DNA from: Bacillota bacterium
Lineage (GTDB): Bacteria > Bacillota > Clostridia > Ch29
Length of the DNA stretch: 64,000 nucleotides
Assembly: GCA_013540605.1 (NCBI GenBank)
Contig: JABVCK010000004.1
Location: forward strand, 186,001 to 250,000
Direction of reading: 5' to 3'
Made by a program: the position numbers and the translations under genes. This document shows, piece by piece, positions 1 through 57,502 of the stretch; position 1 is the first letter of the stretch; every line of letters starts with the position of its first letter. A model generated the notes under the pieces. The model was given only the letters and a program-made list of their open reading frames with translations, was not told the origin of the DNA and did no database searches.

Positions 1-109
1 TGTCAACTATAACCTGCACGCCGCCGGTGCAATTCTCCACAGCCTTCTTTGTCAACAGGACCGGTTCAGGGCAGGACCTTCCCCTTGCATCCACCTGGTT
101 AAGATTCAA
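1..109 (-). CDS. yedF: YedF-like selenium metabolism sulfurtransferase, N-terminal fragment
   Basis: Only the first 36 codons are in the window; the gene runs off the left edge. The reading frame gives VDARGRSCPEPVLLTKKAVE, the TusA/SirA-fold signature with the conserved Cys-Pro pair. The most likely start is the TTG at 107-109, which lies inside the last codons of yedE (11-nt overlap) and is preceded by AAGGGGG. YedF proteins are TusA-like, usually about 200 residues with a C-terminal DsrE-like half, and occur with YedE in selenium-using bacteria. Their exact reaction is not established. The overlap implies translational coupling to yedE. The family call is firm; the start codon is an inference. 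Confidence 0.85.
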   Translation of the reverse strand, partial: MNLNQVDARGRSCPEPVLLTKKAVENCTGGVQVIVD

Positions 110-1184
110 GCTTGGCATCCCCCTTCACTTTAATATCGCTGCTCCTGTCAATATTAAAATAGCCAACCGCAAATACGGCGATAAACCCTATTATTACTGC
201 AACCTGCCCGTTAGCTGTAGGCCCGTTAGCGGATGCGGCCAATCCGAAGTTGTGGGCAAAGGCTGCTCCGGCAGCCATTCCCATAACGGTTACGGCTGAA
301 TCAATGTTGCCCTCGGCCGCCAGAATCAGCTGTCTTAGGGGGCACCCACCAAGGAGCACCGATGCCCACCCGGCCAGGGCCATTCCTAGAAAATTCCACA
401 GCCCATCGGTATGCGCGATGGGTTGGCCCTCAAATCCTAGTTTAAATGTACCTGCAATAAGGTTGGCCGCCAGTGCTGCTGCAAATATTGCTATGAAGCC
501 CGATAGAAGGTGCCAATCCTTAAACATTATAAGGTCCCTCAAACCGCCAACCATACAAAGCCTGGTCCTTTGTGCAAGGGCTCCGAGAGCCAATCCTGCC
601 GCCAGGGATAAAACCACCGGCGCGTGCGCCGCGCCAGGGCCGCTTTCGCTGAAGAAGATGAATGCCGGTCTGACAATCAGAAGAACCAGCAAACCAAGGG
701 CTATTGCCGGAAAAAGGTAGCCTTCAAAACTCGAAAGAGAATAAGTCCTTTTTAGCGAGAACCCTTTATTAAGAAATACAATGCCTATTCCTATCCCTGA
801 AACAAATCCAAGAATACCGAATATCGCGTTAAGGTCTCCTCCAGCCAGCCTGAGTATCATTCTCAGAGGACATCCCAGAAACATCAACGCCCCCACTATA
901 ACAATAAATCCGAGTACAAACCTGGCAAAGGGTGATGACCCTCCCCTGACGTTAAACTCCTTTGCCCCAAAGGCCATCAGGAAGGCTCCCAGCACTATAC
1001 CCAGGATTTCCGGCCTTATGTACTGGACTACCGCAGCCCTGTGCAGCCCCAGGGCTCCCACCGTATCCCTGATGAAGCAGGCAATGCAAAGCCCATAATT
1101 CCCCGCATTTCCCGATTTAACCAGAACCACGGCCAGTATGCCTGCTATGGCTCCGGTTATCATGATGCCTTTCTTGCCACCCAT
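99..1184 (-). CDS. yedE: YedE-type selenium metabolism membrane protein (putative selenium transporter)
   Basis: A 361-residue polytopic membrane protein of the YeeE/YedE (DUF395) family. It contains the repeated Gly-Cys-Pro-hydrophobic signatures of the family (GCPLRMILRLAGGD near residue 104 and GCPLRQLILAAEGN near residue 280), one per internal half, which fits an internally duplicated transporter. The family transports thiosulfate-like species; the form next to yedF is associated with selenium use and is proposed to carry a selenium compound. The start is the ATG at 1184 (MGGKKG) because AAGGAGGGG sits five bases upstream; an in-frame ATG at 1229 has no such site. It is followed by yedF in the same operon. 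The substrate is inferred from context. Confidence 0.85.
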   Translation of the reverse strand: MGGKKGIMITGAIAGILAVVLVKSGNAGNYGLCIACFIRDTVGALGLHRAAVVQYIRPEILGIVLGAFLMAFGAKEFNVRGGSSPFARFVLGFIVIVGALMFLGCPLRMILRLAGGDLNAIFGILGFVSGIGIGIVFLNKGFSLKRTYSLSSFEGYLFPAIALGLLVLLIVRPAFIFFSESGPGAAHAPVVLSLAAGLALGALAQRTRLCMVGGLRDLIMFKDWHLLSGFIAIFAAALAANLIAGTFKLGFEGQPIAHTDGLWNFLGMALAGWASVLLGGCPLRQLILAAEGNIDSAVTVMGMAAGAAFAHNFGLAASANGPTANGQVAVIIGFIAVFAVGYFNIDRSSDIKVKGDAKLES

Positions 1185-1352
1185 GTTACCCCTCCTTATG
1201 TAGTACTGTTGCCAAAATTCACCTTTCACCAGTTATTTTATTAACAAATCCCGCAGAAGTACAATAACCGTAATTTATACAAGAACAGGTATTATAACAA
1301 ATATCTATCGTTGGAGCGGAGGGATTTGTAGTACAATAGGGTAAGAGGCCGC

Positions 1353-1475
1353 TGGTAGTTCGTAGTTGGCAGGTGGTAGGTGGCAGACATCAAGGCAAAA
1401 CTAGAGGGTAAAAAACCAAAGGCATAGCCCGGATCCCTGTGATCTGTGATCTGTGATCTAACATCTGGGAATGTC
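1353..1475. repeat. Heptamer tandem-repeat cluster
   Basis: Intergenic sequence between the divergent yedE and desulfurase genes. It begins with TAGTTCG/TAGTTGG-type heptamers and ends with CTGTGAT three times in tandem. The stretch between (about 1384-1440) resembles the reverse complement of 31321-31372, so a longer dispersed unit is shared by the two loci. No gene is seen here. Confidence 0.7.
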
Positions 1476-1501
1476 CAAAATAATAGAGGGGGGTGCTGAT
1501 G

Positions 1502-2653
1502 ATGAAAAGGGTTTATCTTGATAACGGTGCCACATCCTATCCCAAGGCCCCTGGCGTTGGAGATAGAATGAAGCACTTCATAGAAGATATCGGGTGCAGT
1601 GTAAACAGAAGCGGCTACGAGAGCGATTTCTCCACCGAAGAGGTAGTTTTTGAGACCCGCGAGATAATCGCAGGGATGTTCAATTTTGATCTGCCGGAGA
1701 ACGTAGTATTTACCCTTAACGTGACCCAGGCGTTGAATTTCCTGATTAAGGGCATCCTGGACGCAGGGGACCACTGCATAGTGTCGTCAATGGAGCATAA
1801 TGCCGTGATGCGGCCTTTGATGCAGTTAAGCAGGATGGGAGTGGAATTTACAAGAATCCAGTGTGACGAATTCGGTAGGATGGATGCGGACAGTATCCGC
1901 AGCCATATAAAGAATAATACAAAGGCAGTGATTGTTACCCATGCCTCAAACGTATGCGGCACTGTACTTCCTGTTCAAGAGATAGGCAATATATGCAGGC
2001 AAAACGGACTAAAGCTCATTATTGATACGGCTCAAACCGCAGGAATACTCGACATCGACTTTATGAAGCTGAACGCCGATGCCATAGCTTTCACAGGCCA
2101 TAAAGGGCTTCTGGGACCCCATGGCATAGGGGGCTTCCTGATCAGCAAAGAACTGGCCTCAGCTGTACAAAGCCTTATAAGCGGCGGTACGGGAAGCCTA
2201 TCGGAGTTTGAGGAGCAGCCCCCCTATATGCCGGACAAATTCGAGGCGGGCACACCCAACCTACCGGGAATATTTGGCCTCAATACCGCTCTTAAGTATA
2301 TAAACAAAGTCGGCATCAAAGGCATCAGGGAAAAGGAAATGGAACTCACCGGATTGTTTCTGAACGGGATCGGCAATATCACCGGCATTGAAACGGTAGG
2401 CCTCAGAGAAACAGCAGGAAGGACGGCGGTTATTTCGATTGATTTCGTTGGAAAGGACAATGCAAATATCGCCTATCTACTGGAAAGGGATTATGGGATT
2501 AAGACGCGCTGTGGAATGCACTGCGCCCCTTCCGCCCATAAGACACTGGGCACCTTCCCCCGCGGGACCGTGCGCTTCAGCCTTGGACATTTCAACACGA
2601 AGGAAGAAATCGAGTATACCGTTGATGCCATTAACAGGGTGCTGAAAGGATAA
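1502..2653 (+). CDS. Cysteine desulfurase-like PLP enzyme of the selenium locus
   Basis: A class-V aminotransferase-fold protein of 383 residues. It opens with MKRVYLDNGATSYPK, has SMEHNAVMRPL for cofactor stacking, the PLP lysine in TGHKGLLGP, and a catalytic-type cysteine in RCGMHCAP. This matches the EF2568-like subgroup of the NifS/SufS family, which often sits beside yedE/yedF and may release sulfur or selenium from cysteine or selenocysteine. GAGGGGGG lies eight bases before the ATG at 1502; ATG 1499 and GTG 1493 are alternatives. It is divergent from yedE and convergent with the LysR gene. A second family member lies at 37132. The substrate is inferred. Confidence 0.85.
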   Translation: MKRVYLDNGATSYPKAPGVGDRMKHFIEDIGCSVNRSGYESDFSTEEVVFETREIIAGMFNFDLPENVVFTLNVTQALNFLIKGILDAGDHCIVSSMEHNAVMRPLMQLSRMGVEFTRIQCDEFGRMDADSIRSHIKNNTKAVIVTHASNVCGTVLPVQEIGNICRQNGLKLIIDTAQTAGILDIDFMKLNADAIAFTGHKGLLGPHGIGGFLISKELASAVQSLISGGTGSLSEFEEQPPYMPDKFEAGTPNLPGIFGLNTALKYINKVGIKGIREKEMELTGLFLNGIGNITGIETVGLRETAGRTAVISIDFVGKDNANIAYLLERDYGIKTRCGMHCAPSAHKTLGTFPRGTVRFSLGHFNTKEEIEYTVDAINRVLKG

Positions 2654-2674
2654 TAGGCAGTCCCGAAGGTGTCT

Positions 2675-3580
2675 TCAGTCTCCTTTAAAGTACTCAACAA
2701 CAAAATCCTTAAACGCTCTTGCGAGAGGGCTTAACACCCTGCTCTTGTGATGAATAAAGAAAAACTTCCTCGTAAGGTCCATGTCTTCGATATGGAAGAC
2801 CTTTAACACGCCCTGTGCGGCCTCATCCATTACCGACCTCTCCGATACTATCGAAACGCCTAATCCCGCCCTCACGCACTGCTTGATGGTCTGGGGGTTT
2901 TCTATTTCCGCAATTACCTTCACATCTCTGGCGTTTATACCCTTCTTGCCGAGGGCTTTCTCAAAATGCTTCCTTGTACCGGACCCCTTCTCCCGCATAA
3001 TGAATCTCTCGCCTTTCACCTTCTCCCACGTCAAAACATTGCAGCCGGCTTCAGCATATTCACCGGCATTCGGGGTAATCAGAACCAGCTTATCGGCGCC
3101 TATTTCCATACTCTCCAATCCCTGTCTCATCACACCGGTACCGACGAAGCCGAAATCCGCATCACCCCCGGATATACTGTCTACAACTCCCTTACTGTCG
3201 AACTGCTTAATCAGATATGTGATGCCGGGATATTTACTGCTGAAGTCTTTTATCAATGCAGGGAGGAGATGCTGCTGCGGAACGTTGCTCGAGGCAATGG
3301 CCAGTTCCCCCTCCAGTCTTCCCTCATACCTTGCGACCGAATACCGCGCCTGTTCCCTCATATTCAAAATGTTTACCGCATAGTTATACAGAACCTTGCC
3401 GGCCTCAGTCAGCGTGACATTTTTGCCCGACCTGTTCAATAGGACTGTTCCAAGCTCATCCTCCAGTGCCTGGATGTGGCTGCTCAATGCGGGTTGGGTC
3501 AGGAACAGCTCTTCCGCCGCATGGGTATAACTGTTATGCTTGACAATGGTTACAAGAGTCTCCAACTGCCTGAAATCCAT
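2675..3580 (-). CDS. LysR-family regulator, selenium-metabolism-associated type
   Basis: A 301-residue LysR-type regulator. The N-terminal winged helix (residues 1-60) reads MDFRQLETLVTIVKHNSYTH and then TQPALSSHIQALE; the rest is a periplasmic-binding-protein-like effector domain with a CysB-like pattern (EKGSGTRKHFEKAL). The ATG is preceded by GGAGG at a good distance. LysR proteins of this type recur next to yedE, yedF and the desulfurase-like enzyme, so it probably controls the selenium genes. It ends 22 bp from the convergent desulfurase gene. The effector is unknown. Confidence 0.85.
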   Translation of the reverse strand: MDFRQLETLVTIVKHNSYTHAAEELFLTQPALSSHIQALEDELGTVLLNRSGKNVTLTEAGKVLYNYAVNILNMREQARYSVARYEGRLEGELAIASSNVPQQHLLPALIKDFSSKYPGITYLIKQFDSKGVVDSISGGDADFGFVGTGVMRQGLESMEIGADKLVLITPNAGEYAEAGCNVLTWEKVKGERFIMREKGSGTRKHFEKALGKKGINARDVKVIAEIENPQTIKQCVRAGLGVSIVSERSVMDEAAQGVLKVFHIEDMDLTRKFFFIHHKSRVLSPLARAFKDFVVEYFKGD

Positions 3581-4334: not shown

Positions 4335-4403
4335 TGCAGACTGCAGATCACAGATCCTAGATCCTAGTCACTGATCATTAGCCACTGATAACTGATAACT
4401 GAT
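4335..4403. repeat. Heptamer tandem-repeat cluster
   Basis: Short tandem units of the CACAGATC/CCTAGATC and AACTGAT kinds (for example AACTGATAACTGATAACTGAT around 4385). It is intergenic and belongs to the same family as the clusters at 1353, 13987, 31203, 37010 and 38290. Confidence 0.6.
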
Positions 4404-4431
4404 GACTATATCGGGGACAACACCTTTAGCT

Positions 4432-4465
4432 GAAAGGGGACACACCTTTAAATGTGTCCCCTTTC
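4432..4465. terminator. Bidirectional terminator formed by the GGGGACA repeat
   Basis: GAAAGGGGACACA pairs perfectly with TGTGTCCCCTTTC (13 bp) around an eight-base loop. It lies between the convergent gene at 4103 and mgtE, one base beyond the mgtE stop. The stem is a member of the GGGGACA...TGTCCCC repeat family seen elsewhere in the window. Confidence 0.7.
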
Positions 4466-4466
4466 A

Positions 4467-5807
4467 CTAGAACTGCAGCCCCAACAGCCATGCAGCTATG
4501 GTAAAATACGTCATAAGCGCCATTGCATCAACGATTGTTGTTATAAGCGGACTCGCCATTATCGCAGGGTCTATCTTAATGCTCTTTGCGGCAATAGGCA
4601 GTATTCCTCCCACAATCTTTGCCGCAATTATTGTGACCGTGAGGGTCAGAGATACGGTCATCGCTACCTTGAAGCTTTCCCCTTCAATGAACAATATCCG
4701 CACAAAGTTAACAGCACCAAGCACCGGGCCAACGACCATACTTACCCGCATCTCTTTCCAGGCCACCCGGATAAAGTCCTTCATTTTTATCTCCCCGAGG
4801 GCCAATCCGCGAATTATCAGCGTTGAGGACTGGGAGCCTGCGTTACCCCCGGTATCCATGAGCATCGGGATAAAAGCCGCAAGTATAACCATAGACGACA
4901 GAACCTCCTCGTATCTGCGGATAATGTGTGCCGAAACCGTTGCCGATACCATGAGCACCATCAGCCACAGTATTCTCTTCCTGGCAAGGCTGAAGATACC
5001 CGCAGAAAGATACTCTTCATCGGAGGGTTGAATTGCAGCCATTTTATGAAAATCCTCGGTATTCTCTTCATCAATAACGTCTACAATATCATCAATAGTA
5101 ATAATACCCACCAGCCGGTTTTCATGGTCCACCACCGGAACGGTCAATAGGTCGTATTTCTTGAACACCGATGCCACTTCCTCCTGGTCACTATGCGTAC
5201 CCACGCTGACAAAGCTGGTTTTCATGATGTCCTTCACCTGCTTTTCCGGGTCCGCAAGCACCAAGTCCTTAAGGGAAATCAAACCCTGCAGGACTCTGGA
5301 ATGGTCAATAACATAACAGGTGTATACCGTCTCCTTGTCAGGGGCAGTCCTCCTGATGCGTTCAAGGGCATCGCCTATTGTCATCTCCGCTTTAAGGTCA
5401 ACAAATTCAATGGTCATTATACTTCCCGCAGAGTTCTCCGGGTAGTTTAAAAACTGGTTGATGAGCCTTCTTTCCACATCGCCGGTTTTCCTCAATATCT
5501 TCTTAACGATGTTAGCCGGCATCTCTTCAAGATAGTCTATCATGTCGTCAAAATATAAATCTTTTAGGATCGCTTCAAGCTCTCTCTCATTTATCAAGTA
5601 TGAAATTTCCGCCTGTTTGTTTGTAGAAAGATGCGAGAAAACTTCAGCAGCCTTCTCTTTTGCAAGGAGACGAAATGTCAGCAGGCCGTCCTTGCCATCC
5701 ATTTCATCTATTGCTTCTGCAATATCTGCAGCCTCTGTAACACCAAGCTCTTCCTTAAGCCTGGAAACCTTCTTTTCTTTAATAAGCTCCAGGATTCTTA
5801 CAGTCAT
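4467..5807 (-). CDS. mgtE: Magnesium transporter MgtE
   Basis: A 446-residue MgtE-family Mg2+ channel. The order is canonical: an N-terminal superhelical MgtE_N domain (about 1-130), two CBS domains that sense Mg2+ (about 135-255, including ITIDDIVDVIDEEN), and a five-helix membrane domain from about residue 285. The pore signature PMLMDTGGNAGSQSSTLIIR is intact. GGAGGAGGG precedes the ATG. The gene is preceded on its own strand by an M-box riboswitch and terminator (5969-6194), so transcription should fall when Mg2+ is plentiful. Length is normal for the family. Confidence 0.95.
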   Translation of the reverse strand: MTVRILELIKEKKVSRLKEELGVTEAADIAEAIDEMDGKDGLLTFRLLAKEKAAEVFSHLSTNKQAEISYLINERELEAILKDLYFDDMIDYLEEMPANIVKKILRKTGDVERRLINQFLNYPENSAGSIMTIEFVDLKAEMTIGDALERIRRTAPDKETVYTCYVIDHSRVLQGLISLKDLVLADPEKQVKDIMKTSFVSVGTHSDQEEVASVFKKYDLLTVPVVDHENRLVGIITIDDIVDVIDEENTEDFHKMAAIQPSDEEYLSAGIFSLARKRILWLMVLMVSATVSAHIIRRYEEVLSSMVILAAFIPMLMDTGGNAGSQSSTLIIRGLALGEIKMKDFIRVAWKEMRVSMVVGPVLGAVNFVRILFIEGESFKVAMTVSLTLTVTIIAAKIVGGILPIAAKSIKIDPAIMASPLITTIVDAMALMTYFTIAAWLLGLQF

Positions 5808-6007: not shown

Positions 6008-6194
6008 CACATACTTAGCCGTTTGATACGGCCTCTCCACTCGTTGAGCTTTGGCACTATACAGCTTTGGGGTTTCCCAGCTACATTAGGTAGAACCTTG
6101 CTCCGGTAATACCTGCTGACCCATTGGCATCTTTCGATGTTTCCGGGCAGTAGCATCTATCTGTATAGGAACCTCACCTAACGGAGATTAACTT
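6008..6194 (-). ncRNA. M-box (ykoK) magnesium riboswitch
   Basis: The minus strand carries the conserved M-box elements in order: GTTAGGTGAGG with CTCCGT before it, CCTATACAGA, TGCTACTGCCCGGAAACATC, AAAGATGCCAATGGGTCAGC, ACCGGAGCAAGGTTCTA, GTAGCTGGGAAACCCCAAAG and TAGTGCCAAAGCT. It lies upstream of mgtE with a terminator in between. Mg2+ binding is expected to stop transcription early. Confidence 0.95.
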
Positions 6195-6817: not shown

Positions 6818-6846
6818 TTGACAGCAATAAATATGTATATTATCAT
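6818..6846 (+). promoter_or_regulatory. Vegetative promoter of arsR-acr3
   Basis: TTGACA (6818-6823), 17 nt, TATCAT (6841-6846). The spacer and downstream region hold repeated AATATGT/ATCATATAGATGA half-sites, a plausible ArsR operator. Confidence 0.75.
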
Positions 6847-6878
6847 ATAGATGACCATAAATATGTGAGGTGATATAC

Positions 6879-7205
6879 ATGGATGCGCTTATGGCAAAGC
6901 TTAAGGCTATTTGTGATGAAAGCCGGATCAGGATACTAAAATTGCTGGCCCAGAGGGAATTATGCGCGTGCGATTTCATAGAAAATCTTGATCTGTCCCA
7001 GCCTACGGTATCGCACCATTTAAAGGTACTGGTAGACAGCAATCTTATTATATGCGAAAAGCGGGGTAAATGGTGCTTTTACAGGATAAACTATAGTGAG
7101 TTCCAGGAACTCATTCGGGAGATCAATATTCTGACCGGCACCAGGGCTGAAAATGTTAAGCTATGCAGCAAGGATTGTGAAGGACGGCGAAACAATGAAT
7201 GCTGA
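6879..7205 (+). CDS. arsR: ArsR-family arsenic-sensing repressor
   Basis: A 108-residue winged-helix repressor. The start is ATG 6879 (MDALMAKLKAICDESR) after GAGGTG. The metal-site helix reads ELCACDFIENLDLSQPTVSH: the Cys-Ala-Cys pair and the recognition helix SQPTVSHHL are typical of arsenite-responsive ArsR. The Cys-rich tail (LCSKDCEG) could add ligands. It is followed after 24 nt by the arsenite exporter gene, so it should repress this operon until arsenite binds. Confidence 0.9.
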   Translation: MDALMAKLKAICDESRIRILKLLAQRELCACDFIENLDLSQPTVSHHLKVLVDSNLIICEKRGKWCFYRINYSEFQELIREINILTGTRAENVKLCSKDCEGRRNNEC

Positions 7206-7229: not shown

Positions 7230-8303
7230 ATGGACAATAAAAGGCACATAAAAAAAGGAAAGGAACTGAGCTTTTTTGAAAGATACCTGAGCGTCTGGGT
7301 TGCGCTTTGCATCGTTGCCGGTGTTGCCGTCGGCCAGCTGTTCCCATCATTTCCGCAAACCCTAAGCAGGTTTAAATATGCACAGGTGTCCATCCCCGTG
7401 GCAATATTGATCTGGTTGATGATCTATCCCATGATGGTGCAGATCGATTTCTCCAGCATAGTGAATGCTACAAAGAATCCCAAAGGCTTGGTTGTTACCT
7501 GCGTAACCAACTGGTTGATCAAACCCTTCACTATGTATTTAATAGCATACCTGTTTCTCAAAGTCATATTCAGGGCGTTGATCCCTGCAAGCCTGTCTAC
7601 CGAGTACCTTGCAGGGGCAGTTCTGTTGGGAGCGGCTCCGTGTACGGCAATGGTATTTGTATGGAGTTACCTTACAAAGGGTGACGCCGGCTATACCCTT
7701 GTCCAGGTTGCGGTGAACGACTTGATCCTTGTTGTTGCGTTCGCTCCTATCGTGATGTTTCTCCTTGGAGTAAGCAACATACAGGTTCCCTACGATACTG
7801 TAATCCTATCGGTAATACTGTTTGTTGTAATACCCCTTACTGCGGGTTTCATATCCAGGAACTATATACTGAGAGTAAAAGGCGCCGAATGGTTCGAAAA
7901 CGTATTTCTTAGAAAGCTTGGCAACACGACTATTGTGGGATTGCTTCTTACTTTAATTATAATATTTTCGTTCCAGGGAGACGTTATACTAAAAAATCCC
8001 ATTCATATCGGGCTTATAGCCGTACCCTTAACAATACAGACCTTCTTAATATTCATTATTGCTTACCTCTGGGCAAAGGCGTGGAAGCTTAAACACTCGG
8101 TTGCCGCACCGGCCGCGCTCATTGGGGCAAGCAACTTTTTTGAGCTGGCGGTAGCCGTTGCAATTTCGCTGTTCGGCCTCGAGTCCGGTGCCGCTCTGGC
8201 AACCGTGGTCGGCGTATTGGTGGAAGTTCCCGTAATGCTTGGCCTTGTCCGGATAGCAAACCGGACTACCCACTGGTTTCCTGCCGGAACCAACAATAAT
8301 TGA
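7230..8303 (+). CDS. acr3: ACR3-family arsenite efflux transporter
   Basis: A 357-residue, ten-helix arsenite/H+ antiporter of the bile/arsenite/riboflavin transporter superfamily. The diagnostic ACR3 segment GAAPCTAMVFVWSYLTKGD (about residue 132) contains the essential cysteine; FFELAVAVAISLFG (about residue 300) is the second conserved half. GGAGGGG precedes the ATG. Co-transcribed with arsR, it expels As(III), and possibly Sb(III), from the cytoplasm. No arsenate reductase gene is adjacent, which fits an anaerobe facing mostly arsenite. Confidence 0.95.
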   Translation: MDNKRHIKKGKELSFFERYLSVWVALCIVAGVAVGQLFPSFPQTLSRFKYAQVSIPVAILIWLMIYPMMVQIDFSSIVNATKNPKGLVVTCVTNWLIKPFTMYLIAYLFLKVIFRALIPASLSTEYLAGAVLLGAAPCTAMVFVWSYLTKGDAGYTLVQVAVNDLILVVAFAPIVMFLLGVSNIQVPYDTVILSVILFVVIPLTAGFISRNYILRVKGAEWFENVFLRKLGNTTIVGLLLTLIIIFSFQGDVILKNPIHIGLIAVPLTIQTFLIFIIAYLWAKAWKLKHSVAAPAALIGASNFFELAVAVAISLFGLESGAALATVVGVLVEVPVMLGLVRIANRTTHWFPAGTNNN

Positions 8304-8305
8304 TC

Positions 8306-8356
8306 GGGGACATTCCTTAGCCATAAAGGAATACCCAAAATAAAGGTGTGTCCCCA
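8306..8356. repeat. GGGGACA...TGTCCCC palindromic element
   Basis: GGGGACA opens and TGTCCCC closes the element; inside lies a second hairpin, ATTCCTT...AAGGAAT. Directly after it comes CATACCTTAAAGGAGG, the ribosome-binding site of the phosphoesterase. The same element with the same ribosome-binding extension precedes fluC at 17006. Confidence 0.75.
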
Positions 8357-8378
8357 TACCTTAAAGGAGGAAGTTCTG

Positions 8379-9089
8379 ATGAAAATCGCATTCATCGCGG
8401 ATATTCACGCAAACATCCATGCTCTTTCGGAGGTTCTGCGGGATATTGATGATAAGAATATTGAACACGTCTACTGTCTGGGTGACCTGGTAGGATATAT
8501 GCCCTTTCCCAACGAAGTTATTGAATTGATTAAAAGCAGAAATATCCGGACTGTGCGCGGTAATTACGATGAAAGCGTGGGCGAAGACCTTCTGGTTTGC
8601 GGGTGTGACTATAAGACGCCCAGGGACATGGAATTAGCTTCCCGGTCGCTTCTTTGGACACAGGAAAACACCTCGGCTCAGAACAAGGAATACCTCAGAA
8701 GCTTACCGGAATCTATTGAATTGAACATCGGGGGCAGACGTGTGCTGCTGGTCCATGGAAGCCCGAGAAAGAATAACGAATACCTTTACGAGGATTCCCA
8801 GGAACTGAAGGAAGTTGCGGCAGACTGCAGTTTCGACGTTCTGGTATGCGGGCATACCCATCTGCCCTACTACAAGGTTCTAAACGGTAAACACATAATA
8901 AACGCAGGGAGCGCCGGAAAGCCAAAGCACATGAGCCCGGACGCCACTTACGTGGTGGCGGAAATATCGAATACCGCTGTGAGAGTGGAAATAGTTGAGA
9001 TTCCGTACGACTTCGAAAGGGCTGCAAAGGCCATAGAGGATAGTGCTCTCCCGGACGAATTTGCAGCTCTTGTGCGCAGGGGTAGTTAA
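8379..9089 (+). CDS. Metallophosphoesterase (YfcE/MJ0936-like)
   Basis: A 236-residue calcineurin-fold phosphoesterase. The metal-binding motifs appear in order: DIHANIHAL, GDLVGYMPFPNEV, GNYDESVG, LLVHGSP and CGHTHLPYY, ending with INAGSAGKPKH. ATG 8379 (MKIAFIADIH) follows AAAGGAGGA; the longer in-frame start at 8346 only translates the upstream repeat. The family hydrolyses phosphodiesters with two divalent metals; the physiological substrate is not evident. It follows acr3 but lies beyond a repeat element, so co-transcription is uncertain. Confidence 0.85.
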   Translation: MKIAFIADIHANIHALSEVLRDIDDKNIEHVYCLGDLVGYMPFPNEVIELIKSRNIRTVRGNYDESVGEDLLVCGCDYKTPRDMELASRSLLWTQENTSAQNKEYLRSLPESIELNIGGRRVLLVHGSPRKNNEYLYEDSQELKEVAADCSFDVLVCGHTHLPYYKVLNGKHIINAGSAGKPKHMSPDATYVVAEISNTAVRVEIVEIPYDFERAAKAIEDSALPDEFAALVRRGS

Positions 9090-9130
9090 TAGTTGGTAGT
9101 TCGTAGTTGGTAGTTCGTAGCAACTGACTA
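9089..9130. repeat. TAGTTGG/TAGTTCG heptamer repeat
   Basis: About five heptamer units of TAGTTGG/TAGTTCG type immediately after the phosphoesterase stop, then GCAACTGACTACTGG. It belongs to the dispersed heptamer family. Confidence 0.75.
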
Positions 9131-9149
9131 CTGGAAAGGGGGGTAGAGG

Positions 9150-9437
9150 ATGATAAGAGAGGCAAGGCTTTCGTCCCGATGGCTTGAGGAATTCATCATA
9201 GGCAAGGGTGGAACAATGACAATCAAAATGGATTTTATTATAAAAGGGTGATGAAGCGTATTTGAAGGCCCGTCGGGTTCGATGGGGAGACCGGAAGATA
9301 CTACCGGCTTCAAACAGTTTACTGCCGGGAGTATCCAAATTTATGTTCAAGACAAAGTTCTGGATCTGTTCCTTGAGAATAATAGAATTACGTTTTACCT
9401 TGATGAATACGGGAGATATGAACTGGAACTGCATTGA
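9150..9437 (+). CDS. Small selenoprotein with tandem selenocysteines (CC/Se motif family)
   Basis: ATG 9150 follows AAAGGGGGG by six bases. The frame reads MIREARLSSRWLEEFIIGKG and onward, reaches TGA TGA at 9249-9254, then continues in frame for 41 more nonoverlapping codons of convincing protein (FKQFTAGSIQIYVQDKVLDL, then ITFYLDEYGRYELELH) to a TGA at 9435-9437. Treating both internal TGAs as selenocysteine gives 95 residues. The layout, a KGG...TI strand, adjacent Cys/Sec, a M/GxP-D loop, then a C-terminal IxVY and ITFxLD block, matches what I recall as the CC/Se motif (seleno)protein family. A hairpin suited to a bacterial SECIS lies at 9262-9282. The selenium locus at 1-3580 fits. Function unknown, probably redox. 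Standard gene callers would miss or split it. Confidence 0.8.
9262..9282 (+). promoter_or_regulatory. Candidate SECIS hairpin of the selenoprotein
   Basis: TTGAA pairs with TTCGA (one G-U pair), CCC pairs with GGG, with a GG bulge and a GTC apical loop. The stem begins seven bases after the second TGA, within the usual window for a bacterial SECIS read by SelB. Folding was done by eye. Confidence 0.45.
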
Positions 9438-13238: not shown

Positions 13239-13286
13239 CTACGAACAAAACAAACCATGGAGATAACCATGGCCGCAAGTATCTCC

Positions 13287-13412
13287 CCTTTCAACGCTTA
13301 CGAGGTTAGCTGACGGGCTCGGACTGAAAGAGTTATCCTATCCACCGTGACGGTGGAATTCGCCCCACGAATTGGGTCCCCCGATCTCTGTACAGAGACT
13401 CAGCGATTGCAT
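13287..13412 (-). ncRNA. ydaO/yuaA cyclic di-AMP riboswitch
   Basis: The minus strand contains the conserved elements in order: AATCGCTGAG, GATCGGGGGACCCAATT, GTGGGGCGAATT, a variable hairpin CCACCGTCACGGTGG, then AGCCCGTCAGCTAACCTCGT ending in AAGCGTTG. This is the ydaO-yuaA consensus. Binding of c-di-AMP normally switches off K+ import genes. Here the downstream gene is only a remnant. Confidence 0.95.
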
Positions 13413-13503
13413 ATTCACTTCGAACAAATTGTATCCCAAATGATCGGGACCTGTCAAGCAATGATTATCCCGCAATTTTGGCAAAATAATTGAAATTCTA
13501 TTA

Positions 13504-17082: not shown

Positions 17083-17114
17083 AAAAAAGCTCCTGCATGA
17101 ATAATGCAGAAGCT
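17083..17114 (-). terminator. Terminator of the fluoride riboswitch
   Basis: AGCTTCTGCA pairs with TGCAGGAGCT (one mismatch), followed by six T residues, on the minus strand. It overlaps the 3' edge of the aptamer, as in other transcription-controlling fluoride riboswitches. Confidence 0.9.
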
Positions 17115-17165
17115 ATCAGCCGTTCGACGGTTTGGACATCACCCCGGGGAGCTTCATCCCCAACT
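17104..17165 (-). ncRNA. Fluoride (crcB motif) riboswitch
   Basis: The minus strand reads GGGGATGAAGCTCCCC, then GTGATGTCCAAACCGTCGAA and CGGCTGATAGCTTCTGC. These are the crcB-motif elements: the GATG-containing first stem, AACC, the pseudoknot stem and the CTGAT(G/A) core. It precedes fluC-fluC-DUF190 and should allow read-through when fluoride is bound. Confidence 0.9.
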
Positions 17166-17283
17166 CTAATTTATGCAGTTTTCACAATAATATTATAGCT
17201 TGCATTATCGTATTTTGCAAACTAAAATCTTTCGGCCGCTCCCATATATCTCAATATACACCTGCTTTATATTTAAACCGGCC

Positions 17284-17885: not shown

Positions 17886-19058
17886 TTAGCCCCATATCGC
17901 TCCAAAAATCATGCCTGATATTGTGGCCATAACTACAACCAGCGATACGTAAACAACTGTCTTCTTGGTCCCTATTACACTCCTTATAACCAGCATGTTT
18001 GGCAGAGACAACGCAGGACCGGCAAGCAGAAGTGCCAGGGCAGGGCCCTTACCCATTCCCGCACCCAACAGCCCCTGCAGTATTGGAACCTCGGTCAGGG
18101 TGGCAAAGTACATGAATGCCCCCGCTACCGAAGCGAACAGGTTTGCTCCAAATGAGTTGCCTCCTACCAATGAGTTTACCCATTGCGAGGGTATAATACC
18201 TTCATATCCGGGACGTCCGAGTAAAAACCCGGCAACCAGCACGCCGCCAAACAGTAATGGCAGGATTTTCAGCGCGAATCCCCATGTTGAGGAGTACCAT
18301 TCTTTACGCTCATCCTTCCCATACCACTGAGAAACTGAGAACAGAGCCGCTGCAAAGAATATACCGGCAATAACCCATTTTACTCTGAACACTGCCGCCC
18401 AAGCCCCTGTGGTATCTATTGGCTTTGCCCAGTTAGCAAAAACCAGGAAGCCGATCATGGATGCGAAAAACAGCATATCCTTCCATATGGGACGGCTTTG
18501 CTGGATGTCAAAGTCAAACATGCCTGCATCCTTGTCGGTTCTGTCTTTTTCTTCATTAATGAATATCAAGTGCATCAGCAAACCGATAACAACACTGAAC
18601 AAAACGGCCCCTACTGCCCTTGCAATACCAAGTTCAGGTCCAAGAACCCTTGCAGTAATTATTATCGCAAGCACGTTTATTGCAGGACCGGAGTAAAGAA
18701 AGGCTGTGGCAGGCCCAAGACCCGCACCTCTCATATAGATGCCTGAAAAAAGCGGCAGTACTGTACAGGAACATACAGCCAATATGGATCCGGATACCGA
18801 GGCTACTGAATAGGACACCCACTTTTTGGCTTTAGGACCTAAATACTTCATTACAGAGTCCTGCGAAATAAAAACCGAAATACCACCGGCTATGAAGAAT
18901 GCCGGAACCAGGCATAAAAGAACGTGTTCCCTAGCATATTCGTGCAGCATGGCAAAGGACTCGATAAGCGCTCCCTGCACCCGGGCATCTGCTGCAGGAA
19001 TGAAATATGCAGCTAAAAACACTCCAAAAATAATCAAGAACTTTTTGCGTTCACTCAC
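17886..19058 (-). CDS. ArsP/DUF318-family permease
   Basis: A 390-residue membrane permease of the ArsP (DUF318) family with eight or more helices. Both half-repeats are visible: SVSGSILAVCSCTVLPLFSG (contains the conserved Cys-Ser-Cys), AFLYSGPAINVLA, then ATLTEVPILQGLLGAGMGKG and LLLAGPALSLPNM in the second half. ArsP proteins export organoarsenicals, but the family is broad. GTG 19058 is chosen because AGGGGGAG lies five bases upstream; starts further out translate heptamer repeat. An ArsR-type gene precedes it and thioredoxin- and CMD-like genes follow, so metal- or arsenic-responsive export is likely. Confidence 0.85.
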   Translation of the reverse strand: MSERKKFLIIFGVFLAAYFIPAADARVQGALIESFAMLHEYAREHVLLCLVPAFFIAGGISVFISQDSVMKYLGPKAKKWVSYSVASVSGSILAVCSCTVLPLFSGIYMRGAGLGPATAFLYSGPAINVLAIIITARVLGPELGIARAVGAVLFSVVIGLLMHLIFINEEKDRTDKDAGMFDFDIQQSRPIWKDMLFFASMIGFLVFANWAKPIDTTGAWAAVFRVKWVIAGIFFAAALFSVSQWYGKDERKEWYSSTWGFALKILPLLFGGVLVAGFLLGRPGYEGIIPSQWVNSLVGGNSFGANLFASVAGAFMYFATLTEVPILQGLLGAGMGKGPALALLLAGPALSLPNMLVIRSVIGTKKTVVYVSLVVVMATISGMIFGAIWG

Positions 19059-19146
19059 AAAGACTCCCCCTGACATTATAGTTGGTAGTTCGTAGTTTAC
19101 TAACAAGTAATATAAAGTTCAATAAAAATTGGTGAACAGACGGCAG

Positions 19147-19473
19147 TTACAGACTCCTTATTAGTTCATCCTTTTCCTCATGCTGCTCCTTTATTACGGC
19201 ATCTATACACCCCAAAAAAGAACTGACACAGGGAGTTTTTAACCTGTAATAAATATTAAGTCCTTCTTTTTTTGTCTCAACGATTCCTGCGTTTCTAAGA
19301 GTCGCCAGATGCCTGGAAACGCTTGACTGTTTTTCTCCAAGGTATTCAACGATTTCGCAGACACATCTCTCCCTTTCCTCCAGGTAGTCGACAATAGCTA
19401 ATCTTACCGGGCTGGAAAGGGCCTTGAAAACCTCTGCCCTCAAAATGTATTTTTGCTTTTCCCGATTGTCCAT
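19147..19473 (-). CDS. ArsR-family metalloregulator
   Basis: A 108-residue winged-helix repressor starting at ATG 19473 (MDNREKQKYILRAEVFKALS). The metal helix reads RERCVCEIVEYLGEKQSSVS with a Cys-Val-Cys pair, and additional cysteines lie at TPCVSSFLGC near the C-terminus. It heads the operon with the ArsP-type permease. A perfect 50-bp palindrome (19482-19531) overlaps its ribosome-binding site and is the likely self-operator. Confidence 0.9.
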   Translation of the reverse strand: MDNREKQKYILRAEVFKALSSPVRLAIVDYLEERERCVCEIVEYLGEKQSSVSRHLATLRNAGIVETKKEGLNIYYRLKTPCVSSFLGCIDAVIKEQHEEKDELIRSL

Positions 19474-19481
19474 AGTAACCA

Positions 19482-19531
19482 CCCTAATAATATAGTATAT
19501 TACTATATAGTAATATACTATATTATTAGGG
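19482..19531. promoter_or_regulatory. Perfect 50-bp palindrome, likely ArsR operator
   Basis: The left 25 bases CCCTAATAATATAGTATATTA plus CTAT are exactly the reverse complement of the right 25 bases. It contains internal repeats of TATAGTATATTACTATA type. It lies immediately before the ArsR start, so the repressor would cover both promoter and ribosome-binding site. Confidence 0.8.
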
Positions 19532-29356: not shown

Positions 29357-29369
29357 ATAAACTTTTACA

Positions 29370-29458
29370 GGCGGCCCGGCTGCCGTGGCAATATAGCTTG
29401 CTTTAGGCCCGTGGCTTTGCGTCCCCACCTTTCGATGGGTTTGCCTTTGTCCGTATGC
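29370..29458 (-). ncRNA. Cyclic di-GMP-I (GEMM-I) riboswitch
   Basis: The minus strand has GACAAAGGCAAACC, the GAAA tetraloop with its stem (CCATCGAAAGGTGG), GGACGCAAAGCCACGGGCCT, then the second stem closing with GGCAGCCGGGCCGCC. These are the diagnostic GEMM-I elements. It controls cheW and the chemoreceptor. Confidence 0.95.
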
Positions 29459-36633: not shown

Positions 36634-36748
36634 TCTTCTCATCTGCCAGGACATTACATCCTGCTGGAATTAGCACCTTTTAGGCACTCCCCTAAAGGTT
36701 GCTGAGACATCATAGGGCCAGTCCCTCCGCCTCTCTTGATGAGATTTG
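36634..36748 (-). ncRNA. SAM-I (S-box) riboswitch
   Basis: The minus strand begins ATCTCATCAAGAGAGGCGGA and continues with GGGACTGGCCC, ATGATGTCTCAGCAACC, then GGTGCTAATTCCAGCAG and ends GGCAGATGAGAAG. These are the conserved S-box elements in order. It controls metA-metY; SAM binding should terminate transcription. Confidence 0.95.
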
Positions 36749-57099: not shown

Positions 57100-57299
57100 A
57101 CGGCACGCCCTCCTGCAACTTCATTTTCCAGTAGTTTACCCCTGCCGGCAAAACGTATGCGCAGCTCCGGACAACCCTTATTTATGATTATACTTTAAAC
57201 CTTATGATTTAGCACTAATATAGGCTTAACAAAGTTTCAAGCTTTCTTGACGATGACCGGCTTAAATGATATTATTTAACCGTAAAAACCAATCATTAT

Positions 57300-57455
57300 A
57301 GTCTTACGGTCCATAGATGGATAATAGGGAAAACGGTGAAAACCCGTTGCAGCCCCCGCTACTGTAAGCGATGACAATCCCCGAAATGCCACCAGCTATT
57401 GGGAAGGCCGGGAAGAGGATGAATCGTGAGCCAGGAGACCTGCCTAAGACTTGGT
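57300..57455 (+). ncRNA. Cobalamin (adenosylcobalamin-type) riboswitch
   Basis: In order: GATAATAGGGAAAACGGTGA, AAACCCGTTGCAGCCCCCGC, the TACTGTAAGCGATG core, and the B12 box GAGCCAGGAGACCTGCC. This is the B12-element consensus. It precedes btuFCD, with a terminator at 57503. Confidence 0.95.
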
Positions 57456-57502
57456 GCTTGGCCTTCGGAGGGAAGGTGACCATGCATTACGCAAGTCTCA
57501 TT

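Follow-up and report, generated by a model that had tools for sequence, protein, structure and literature searches.

The locus

The window, by which we mean the whole 64-kb stretch of Bacillota DNA that was analysed, carries four genes in the order arsR-acr3-phosphoesterase-UU, all on one strand and separated by short gaps. UU denotes here a gene with two adjacent in-frame TGA codons, after the pair of selenocysteine (Sec, U) residues it is predicted to encode. The first gene encodes an ArsR/SmtB-family metalloregulator (6870..7205, plus strand; NF033788 E 1.6e-25, above cut-off, and PF01022), the second an ACR3-family arsenite efflux transporter (7230..8303, plus strand; TIGR00832 406.5 bits, cut-off 282.8) and the third a YfcE-like calcineurin-fold phosphoesterase that is a conserved neighbour (8346..9089, plus strand; TIGR00040 67.6 bits). 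Upstream of arsR lies a sigma-70-like sequence, TTGACA-17-TATCAT (6818..6846, plus strand), a putative operon promoter that matches the pattern at 11/12 positions and is by itself no evidence of function. No terminator-like site was found on that strand between acr3 and the UU gene, the one weak match lying inside acr3. The UU gene is probably the last gene of this arsenic operon. The gap between the phosphoesterase and UU genes (9090-9121) contains a short direct repeat, tagttggtagttcg.

The UU gene itself (9150..9437, plus strand) opens with an ATG at 9150, preceded by a purine-rich ribosome-binding site, aaaggggggtagagg, within the region ggaaaggggggtagagg (9133..9149, plus strand); a strong Shine-Dalgarno sequence stands before the other UU genes too. 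From the ATG, 33 codons lead to TGA TGA at 9249-9254, and 60 sense codons follow up to a TGA at 9435-9437. Read through, the frame gives a product of 95 residues with two adjacent Sec, at residues 34 (9249..9251, plus strand) and 35 (9252..9254, plus strand). All elements of the paired-TGA selenoprotein put forward in the original prediction, the frame, its 33 + 60 codons and the ribosome-binding site, are thus present, and the comparisons below support recoding. Gene callers of the standard type halt at the first TGA and would miss UU genes.

Two further sets of observations concern the rest of the window. A second metalloid-related locus, with an ArsP-type permease and an ArsR regulator, occupies 17886-19482 on the minus strand. 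Six riboswitches are present: M-box (6029-6192), c-di-AMP (13280-13415), fluoride (17100-17170), c-di-GMP-I-GGC (29366-29454), SAM (36636-36745) and cobalamin (57289-57461).

Family membership and conservation of the TGA pair

The TGA TGA layout by itself is unremarkable: counting both strands, the 64-kb window has three read-through TGATGA frames that are open to this extent before and after the pair. It is comparison that sets the UU gene apart from chance: TGA TGA recurs at 27 loci, the hairpin covaries and keeps a fixed distance, and the codons after the pair are under purifying selection.

The sole profile match of the window protein is to NCBIfam NF041239, the "CC/Se motif family (seleno)protein". 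The match (E 2.4e-9) covers residues 13-85 and thus extends to either side of the TGA pair; at 37.1 bits, the window protein taken alone is 3 bits below the curated cut-off of 40. E values for other UU members go down to 1.4e-14, 17 of 18 UU members match the family, and a profile-profile comparison of the UU members with NF041239 gives E 2.3e-21 with full-length similarity and the motif at the same position. The earlier guess of a CC/Se-type protein was therefore right by profile, and within the CC/Se motif family the UU genes make up a double-Sec subfamily. As a first homologue query, the lone window protein found no relatives, and an alignment was required; searches of viral contigs, and of the PDB by sequence, returned no UU relatives.

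Members of NF041239 occur in 92 of 398 sampled genomes of the phylum. One TGA is the commonest state; some members lack a TGA, and a group carries two, which always adjoin each other. Close relatives of the UU genes have TGA TGA without exception. In total, 27 distinct TGA TGA loci were found, the window included. A profile built from UU members (A1) recovered ten further loci in named genomes, partly already known, and eight strong matches in a further order, all of them TGA TGA; it also sets UU genes (E 1e-36 or better) apart from the single-Sec paralogues that share their genomes (1e-6 to 1e-11). Carriers include the cultured Thermovorax subterraneus, Thermosediminibacter litoriperuensis and Alkaliphilus peptidifermentans, as well as one Anaerolineae metagenome-assembled genome. 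In a tree of 109 members, built on few columns and weak at its other forks, the 20 UU rows form one side of a branch with SH-aLRT 98.

Within the family alignment, the first U lines up with the single Sec that members usually have; the column of the second holds Cys (22 members), Ala (30 members) or Gly in single-Sec relatives. The frame of single-Sec and Cys relatives is continuous through the site of the TGA pair. Homologues might have ended before the pair; instead, sequence similarity carries on past it and is conserved downstream. For the 60 downstream codons, closely related pairs that have accumulated enough changes give a dN/dS of about 0.07-0.08, which indicates purifying selection.

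The source genome has a second UU paralogue (G000:C35:156529-156777; L001, L020), which also has two TGA codons and reads NTUUFKVKKCPLG. It adjoins genes for an aldehyde:ferredoxin oxidoreductase (AOR), a ferredoxin and a class-III aminotransferase.

Selenium machinery and the bSECIS hairpin

Selenocysteine decoding depends on dedicated machinery, whose absence would have spoken against recoding. The source genome has all of it on one contig (C11): tRNA-Sec (70.7 bits), selB, selA and selD. The selD gene (G000:C11, L019, about 4396-5412) has its own in-frame TGA and reads SSGUAAK, making it a selenoprotein gene as well. SelB is present in 10 of 10 further genomes with UU loci, those of the named-genome set of profile A1. 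The window holds a selenium locus (99-3580) in which the yedE part of the expected yedE/yedF locus was found, with a YedE selenium transporter at 99-1229 and a selenium-metabolism LysR regulator at 2675-3580; a cysteine-desulfurase/selenocysteine-lyase-like enzyme lies between them (1493-2653).

Downstream of the TGA pair lies a bSECIS hairpin, CCCGUCG-GGUU-CGAUGGG (9269..9286, plus strand), recognised by covariation, geometry and a synonymous-codon control. The original prediction of a hairpin here holds, but its distance does not: the 7-bp stem begins 14 nt after the second TGA, not seven. Published limits for bSECIS elements are a loop of 3-9 nt, a stem of 4-16 bp, G in the first two loop positions, a distance of 16-37 nt from the UGA and a minimum free energy of -7.5 or lower (PMC13188914). 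With a loop of 4 (GGUU, 9276-9279), a stem of 7, GG, distances of 21 and 24 nt from the UGAs and -10.1 kcal/mol, the window hairpin lies within all of them.

Folded alone, the hairpin stretch is no more stable than its shuffles (z -0.7). Because the single sequence is not significant, comparative tests were used instead. When 18 UU loci are aligned without gaps, a stem of 7 bp capped by a GGUY loop is paired in 98.4% of cells, and pairing collapses once the partner strand is slid. Two pairs show double changes (nine cells), and none of 500 shuffles was as good. At one Ser codon, the synonymous third base (A, G or U) varies together with the base it pairs with in the codons that follow, where the amino acids therefore go with the pairing. 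The loop starts exactly 21 nt past the second UGA and 24 nt past the first in 25 of 27 loci. All published limits are satisfied by 20 of 27 loci, against 1.9 +/- 1.2 (maximum 6) under synonymous-codon randomisation, and the mean hairpin energy is -9.0 kcal/mol against -2.6 under the same randomisation.

In single-Sec relatives, read by eye, the distance from the only UGA down to the loop GU is 25-26 nt; for UU genes the corresponding distances are 23-24 nt from the second UGA and 26-27 nt from the first. This placement suggests that one hairpin may be positioned to serve both UGAs.

Neighbouring genes in other genomes

Arsenic-resistance genes recur beside UU genes, arranged in three or more different orders. 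The order is acr3-arsR-phosphoesterase-UU in a genome from the family to which the source belongs, and other loci read arsR-acr3-phosphoesterase-arsD-arsA-rhodanese-UU (L071), arsR-UU-arsD-arsA (L075), UU-arsR-arsD-arsA (G583 and G593) and UU-arsR-phosphoesterase with arsC, arsD and arsA further on (L077). At one locus, arsR-acr3-UU (L072), ars and AOR genes both stand beside the UU gene. ACR3, ArsA or ArsD is encoded within 1.5 kb at 7 of 26 UU loci and at none of 57 single-Sec/Cys loci (Fisher 1.6e-4, a value that overstates independence since the UU loci are related by descent). The ars clusters of several UU loci also include a YfcE-like phosphoesterase gene or have one close by (L077, G000a, G400, L071 and G583).

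A second type of neighbour, AOR with a ferredoxin, is found at about ten UU loci and at the second copy of the source genome. Together, ars or AOR genes lie within 1.5 kb of 16 of the 26 UU loci and of 0 of the 57 other family members; a few UU loci have neither. The ars or AOR neighbours of UU genes are a new observation, and the sampled single-Sec relatives are without them.

Predicted fold

An AlphaFold2 model was built from 11 UU sequences (pLDDT 93.9, pTM 0.85); its leading PDB matches are all proteins of the IscA/SufA/HesB fold, the best Foldseek E being 6.6e-3. With VIA-align, IscA/SufA/HesB chains score Z 5.5 to 3.4, and the next unrelated chain 2.2. Such moderate Z values suggest a similarity of fold only. 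Weak profile matches agree with the fold: of 17 CC/Se members, 9 hit PF01521, the best at 0.0014 and below cut-off, and NF038090 is hit by 3 of 18 UU members. The window protein has no match in Pfam, PF01521 included. As judged by eye, the Sec loop comes after the strand that bears the first ligand Cys of IscA; of the three Cys ligands of IscA, the last two form a C-terminal CxC, and no such C-terminal Cys pair is present in the UU alignment. The source genome, which is 99.5% complete, has no conventional IscA/HesB protein by PF01521 at E <= 10.

Proposed function and alternatives

The window gene very probably encodes a protein with a Sec-Sec pair, and sequence comparison makes a strong case that both UGAs are decoded as Sec. 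Below, we set out a mechanism that may follow from such a product and the alternatives to it. SelB, together with one shared bSECIS hairpin, would decode both adjacent UGA codons as Sec, giving a small selenoprotein of IscA/HesB-like fold that would expose a vicinal selenol pair. This pair would bind a soft metal(loid), in the window As(III), and bound As(III) might then be scavenged or passed to efflux, after the manner of the vicinal Cys of ArsD. Since several UU genes lie beside arsenic-resistance genes, the role of the protein is probably to deal with a toxic metalloid or to carry out some related redox task. The original prediction suggested a diselenide or metal binding; the ars neighbourhood, which it did not mention, favours metal(loid) binding, and we lean slightly towards the binding of a soft metal(loid) as the function. 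By analogy with ArsD, As(III) is, with moderate confidence, the putative ligand in ars operons. Against arsenic as the sole context, about ten UU loci adjoin AOR instead. For the reading as a whole, a widespread Sec-Sec family made by two consecutive SelB-dependent recodings through one hairpin and serving, where encoded in arsenic operons, to ligate As(III) as a diselenolate, we estimate a probability of about 0.5.

The main rival to metal(loid) binding is a redox role for the Sec pair, in which the protein would be a selenol/diselenide electron carrier, a reductase or a peroxidase, with the ars and oxidoreductase neighbours as its redox partners. Proteins with Sec are mostly redox proteins (PMC13188914), and AOR with a 4Fe-4S ferredoxin is found at about ten, or roughly half, of the UU loci. 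The predicted fold, however, is IscA/HesB-like rather than thioredoxin-like, and seven UU loci are contained directly in ars clusters. On general chemical grounds, a dichalcogenide between adjacent residues would also be strained. On balance, we regard a redox role as rather unlikely.

The fold gives rise to another proposal, that of an A-type-carrier-like protein for the assembly of Fe-S, Se or tungsten cofactors, which would have AOR as its main client and would protect or repair arsenite-sensitive centres when encoded in arsenic operons. AOR stands beside UU in Thermosediminibacterales-type genomes and at the second copy of the source genome, and L072 combines ars and AOR genes around one UU gene, as this proposal would have it. 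The missing C-terminal CxC ligands speak against such a carrier, as do the ars loci, which show no link to cofactor assembly genes, and its chances appear slimmer than those of a redox role.

That TGA TGA is a double stop after a 33-residue peptide, with downstream similarity left by a decayed or separately started frame, is highly improbable and is discarded along with two separate ORFs: such layouts do arise by chance (the three in the window) and the hairpin alone is of ordinary stability, but single-Sec and Cys relatives are continuous across the site, the downstream frame is under purifying selection, both TGAs are kept in 27/27 loci and the hairpin covaries at fixed spacing. Whole-genome reassignment of TGA was likewise ruled out, as TGA terminates other ORFs of the window and the Sec machinery is present.

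Relation to known systems and significance

The Moorella-type members of the CC/Se family NF041239 resemble the UU proteins in length, in profile similarity over the whole chain and in the column of the Sec; they share a P six to seven residues on, a G-x-P block and a SECIS just downstream. They differ in having one Sec, Cys-Cys, Cys-Sec or Sec-Cys where UU proteins have two adjacent Sec, and the UU genes are set apart from the rest of the family as a separate clade with ars or AOR neighbours. NF041239 is listed as CxxU with 1 Sec in a review from 2026 that covers 119 families of prokaryotic selenoproteins and includes no UU motif (PMC13188914).

IscA/SufA/HesB carriers and HesB-like selenoproteins (PF01521, NF038090, TIGR01911) share with UU proteins the predicted fold and weak profile matches, and the Sec loop follows the strand of the first ligand Cys of IscA. 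Unlike them, UU proteins are without the C-terminal CxC, score below the family cut-offs and have Sec-Sec.

The metallochaperone ArsD is likewise encoded in ars operons and has a vicinal pair of soft ligands; its Cys12, Cys13 and Cys18 bind As(III) (PMC4562236). Its sequence is unrelated, with no match between the ArsD profile NF033727 and the window protein. ArsD is encoded beside UU in the operons of L071, L077, G583 and G593, and this sharing of operons rules out UU as an ArsD substitute.

Adjacent Sec-Sec is also found in the algal protein PDI_e, which has the motif GUGUU and was described as the first selenoprotein in which two Sec were known to follow one another directly (PMC7539508). 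PDI_e is eukaryotic, has a thioredoxin/PDI fold and a SECIS in its 3'-UTR, and shows no homology to UU proteins. A search of the open-access PMC literature yielded no paper that describes adjacent Sec-Sec for prokaryotes or connects NF041239 with arsenic. To judge from the open literature searched, decoding of UGA UGA as Sec-Sec is undescribed in prokaryotes, the one reported case being the algal one.

The UU genes raise a mechanistic question, namely how one bSECIS could support two consecutive UGAs, each in competition with release factor 2. Their operon context gives a selenoprotein family a concrete functional hypothesis, and the binding of arsenite, a soft metalloid, offers a testable answer to the cost of placing two Sec in a 95-residue protein. 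If this proves true, the Sec-Sec family would be the vicinal-selenol counterpart of vicinal-thiol As(III) sites.
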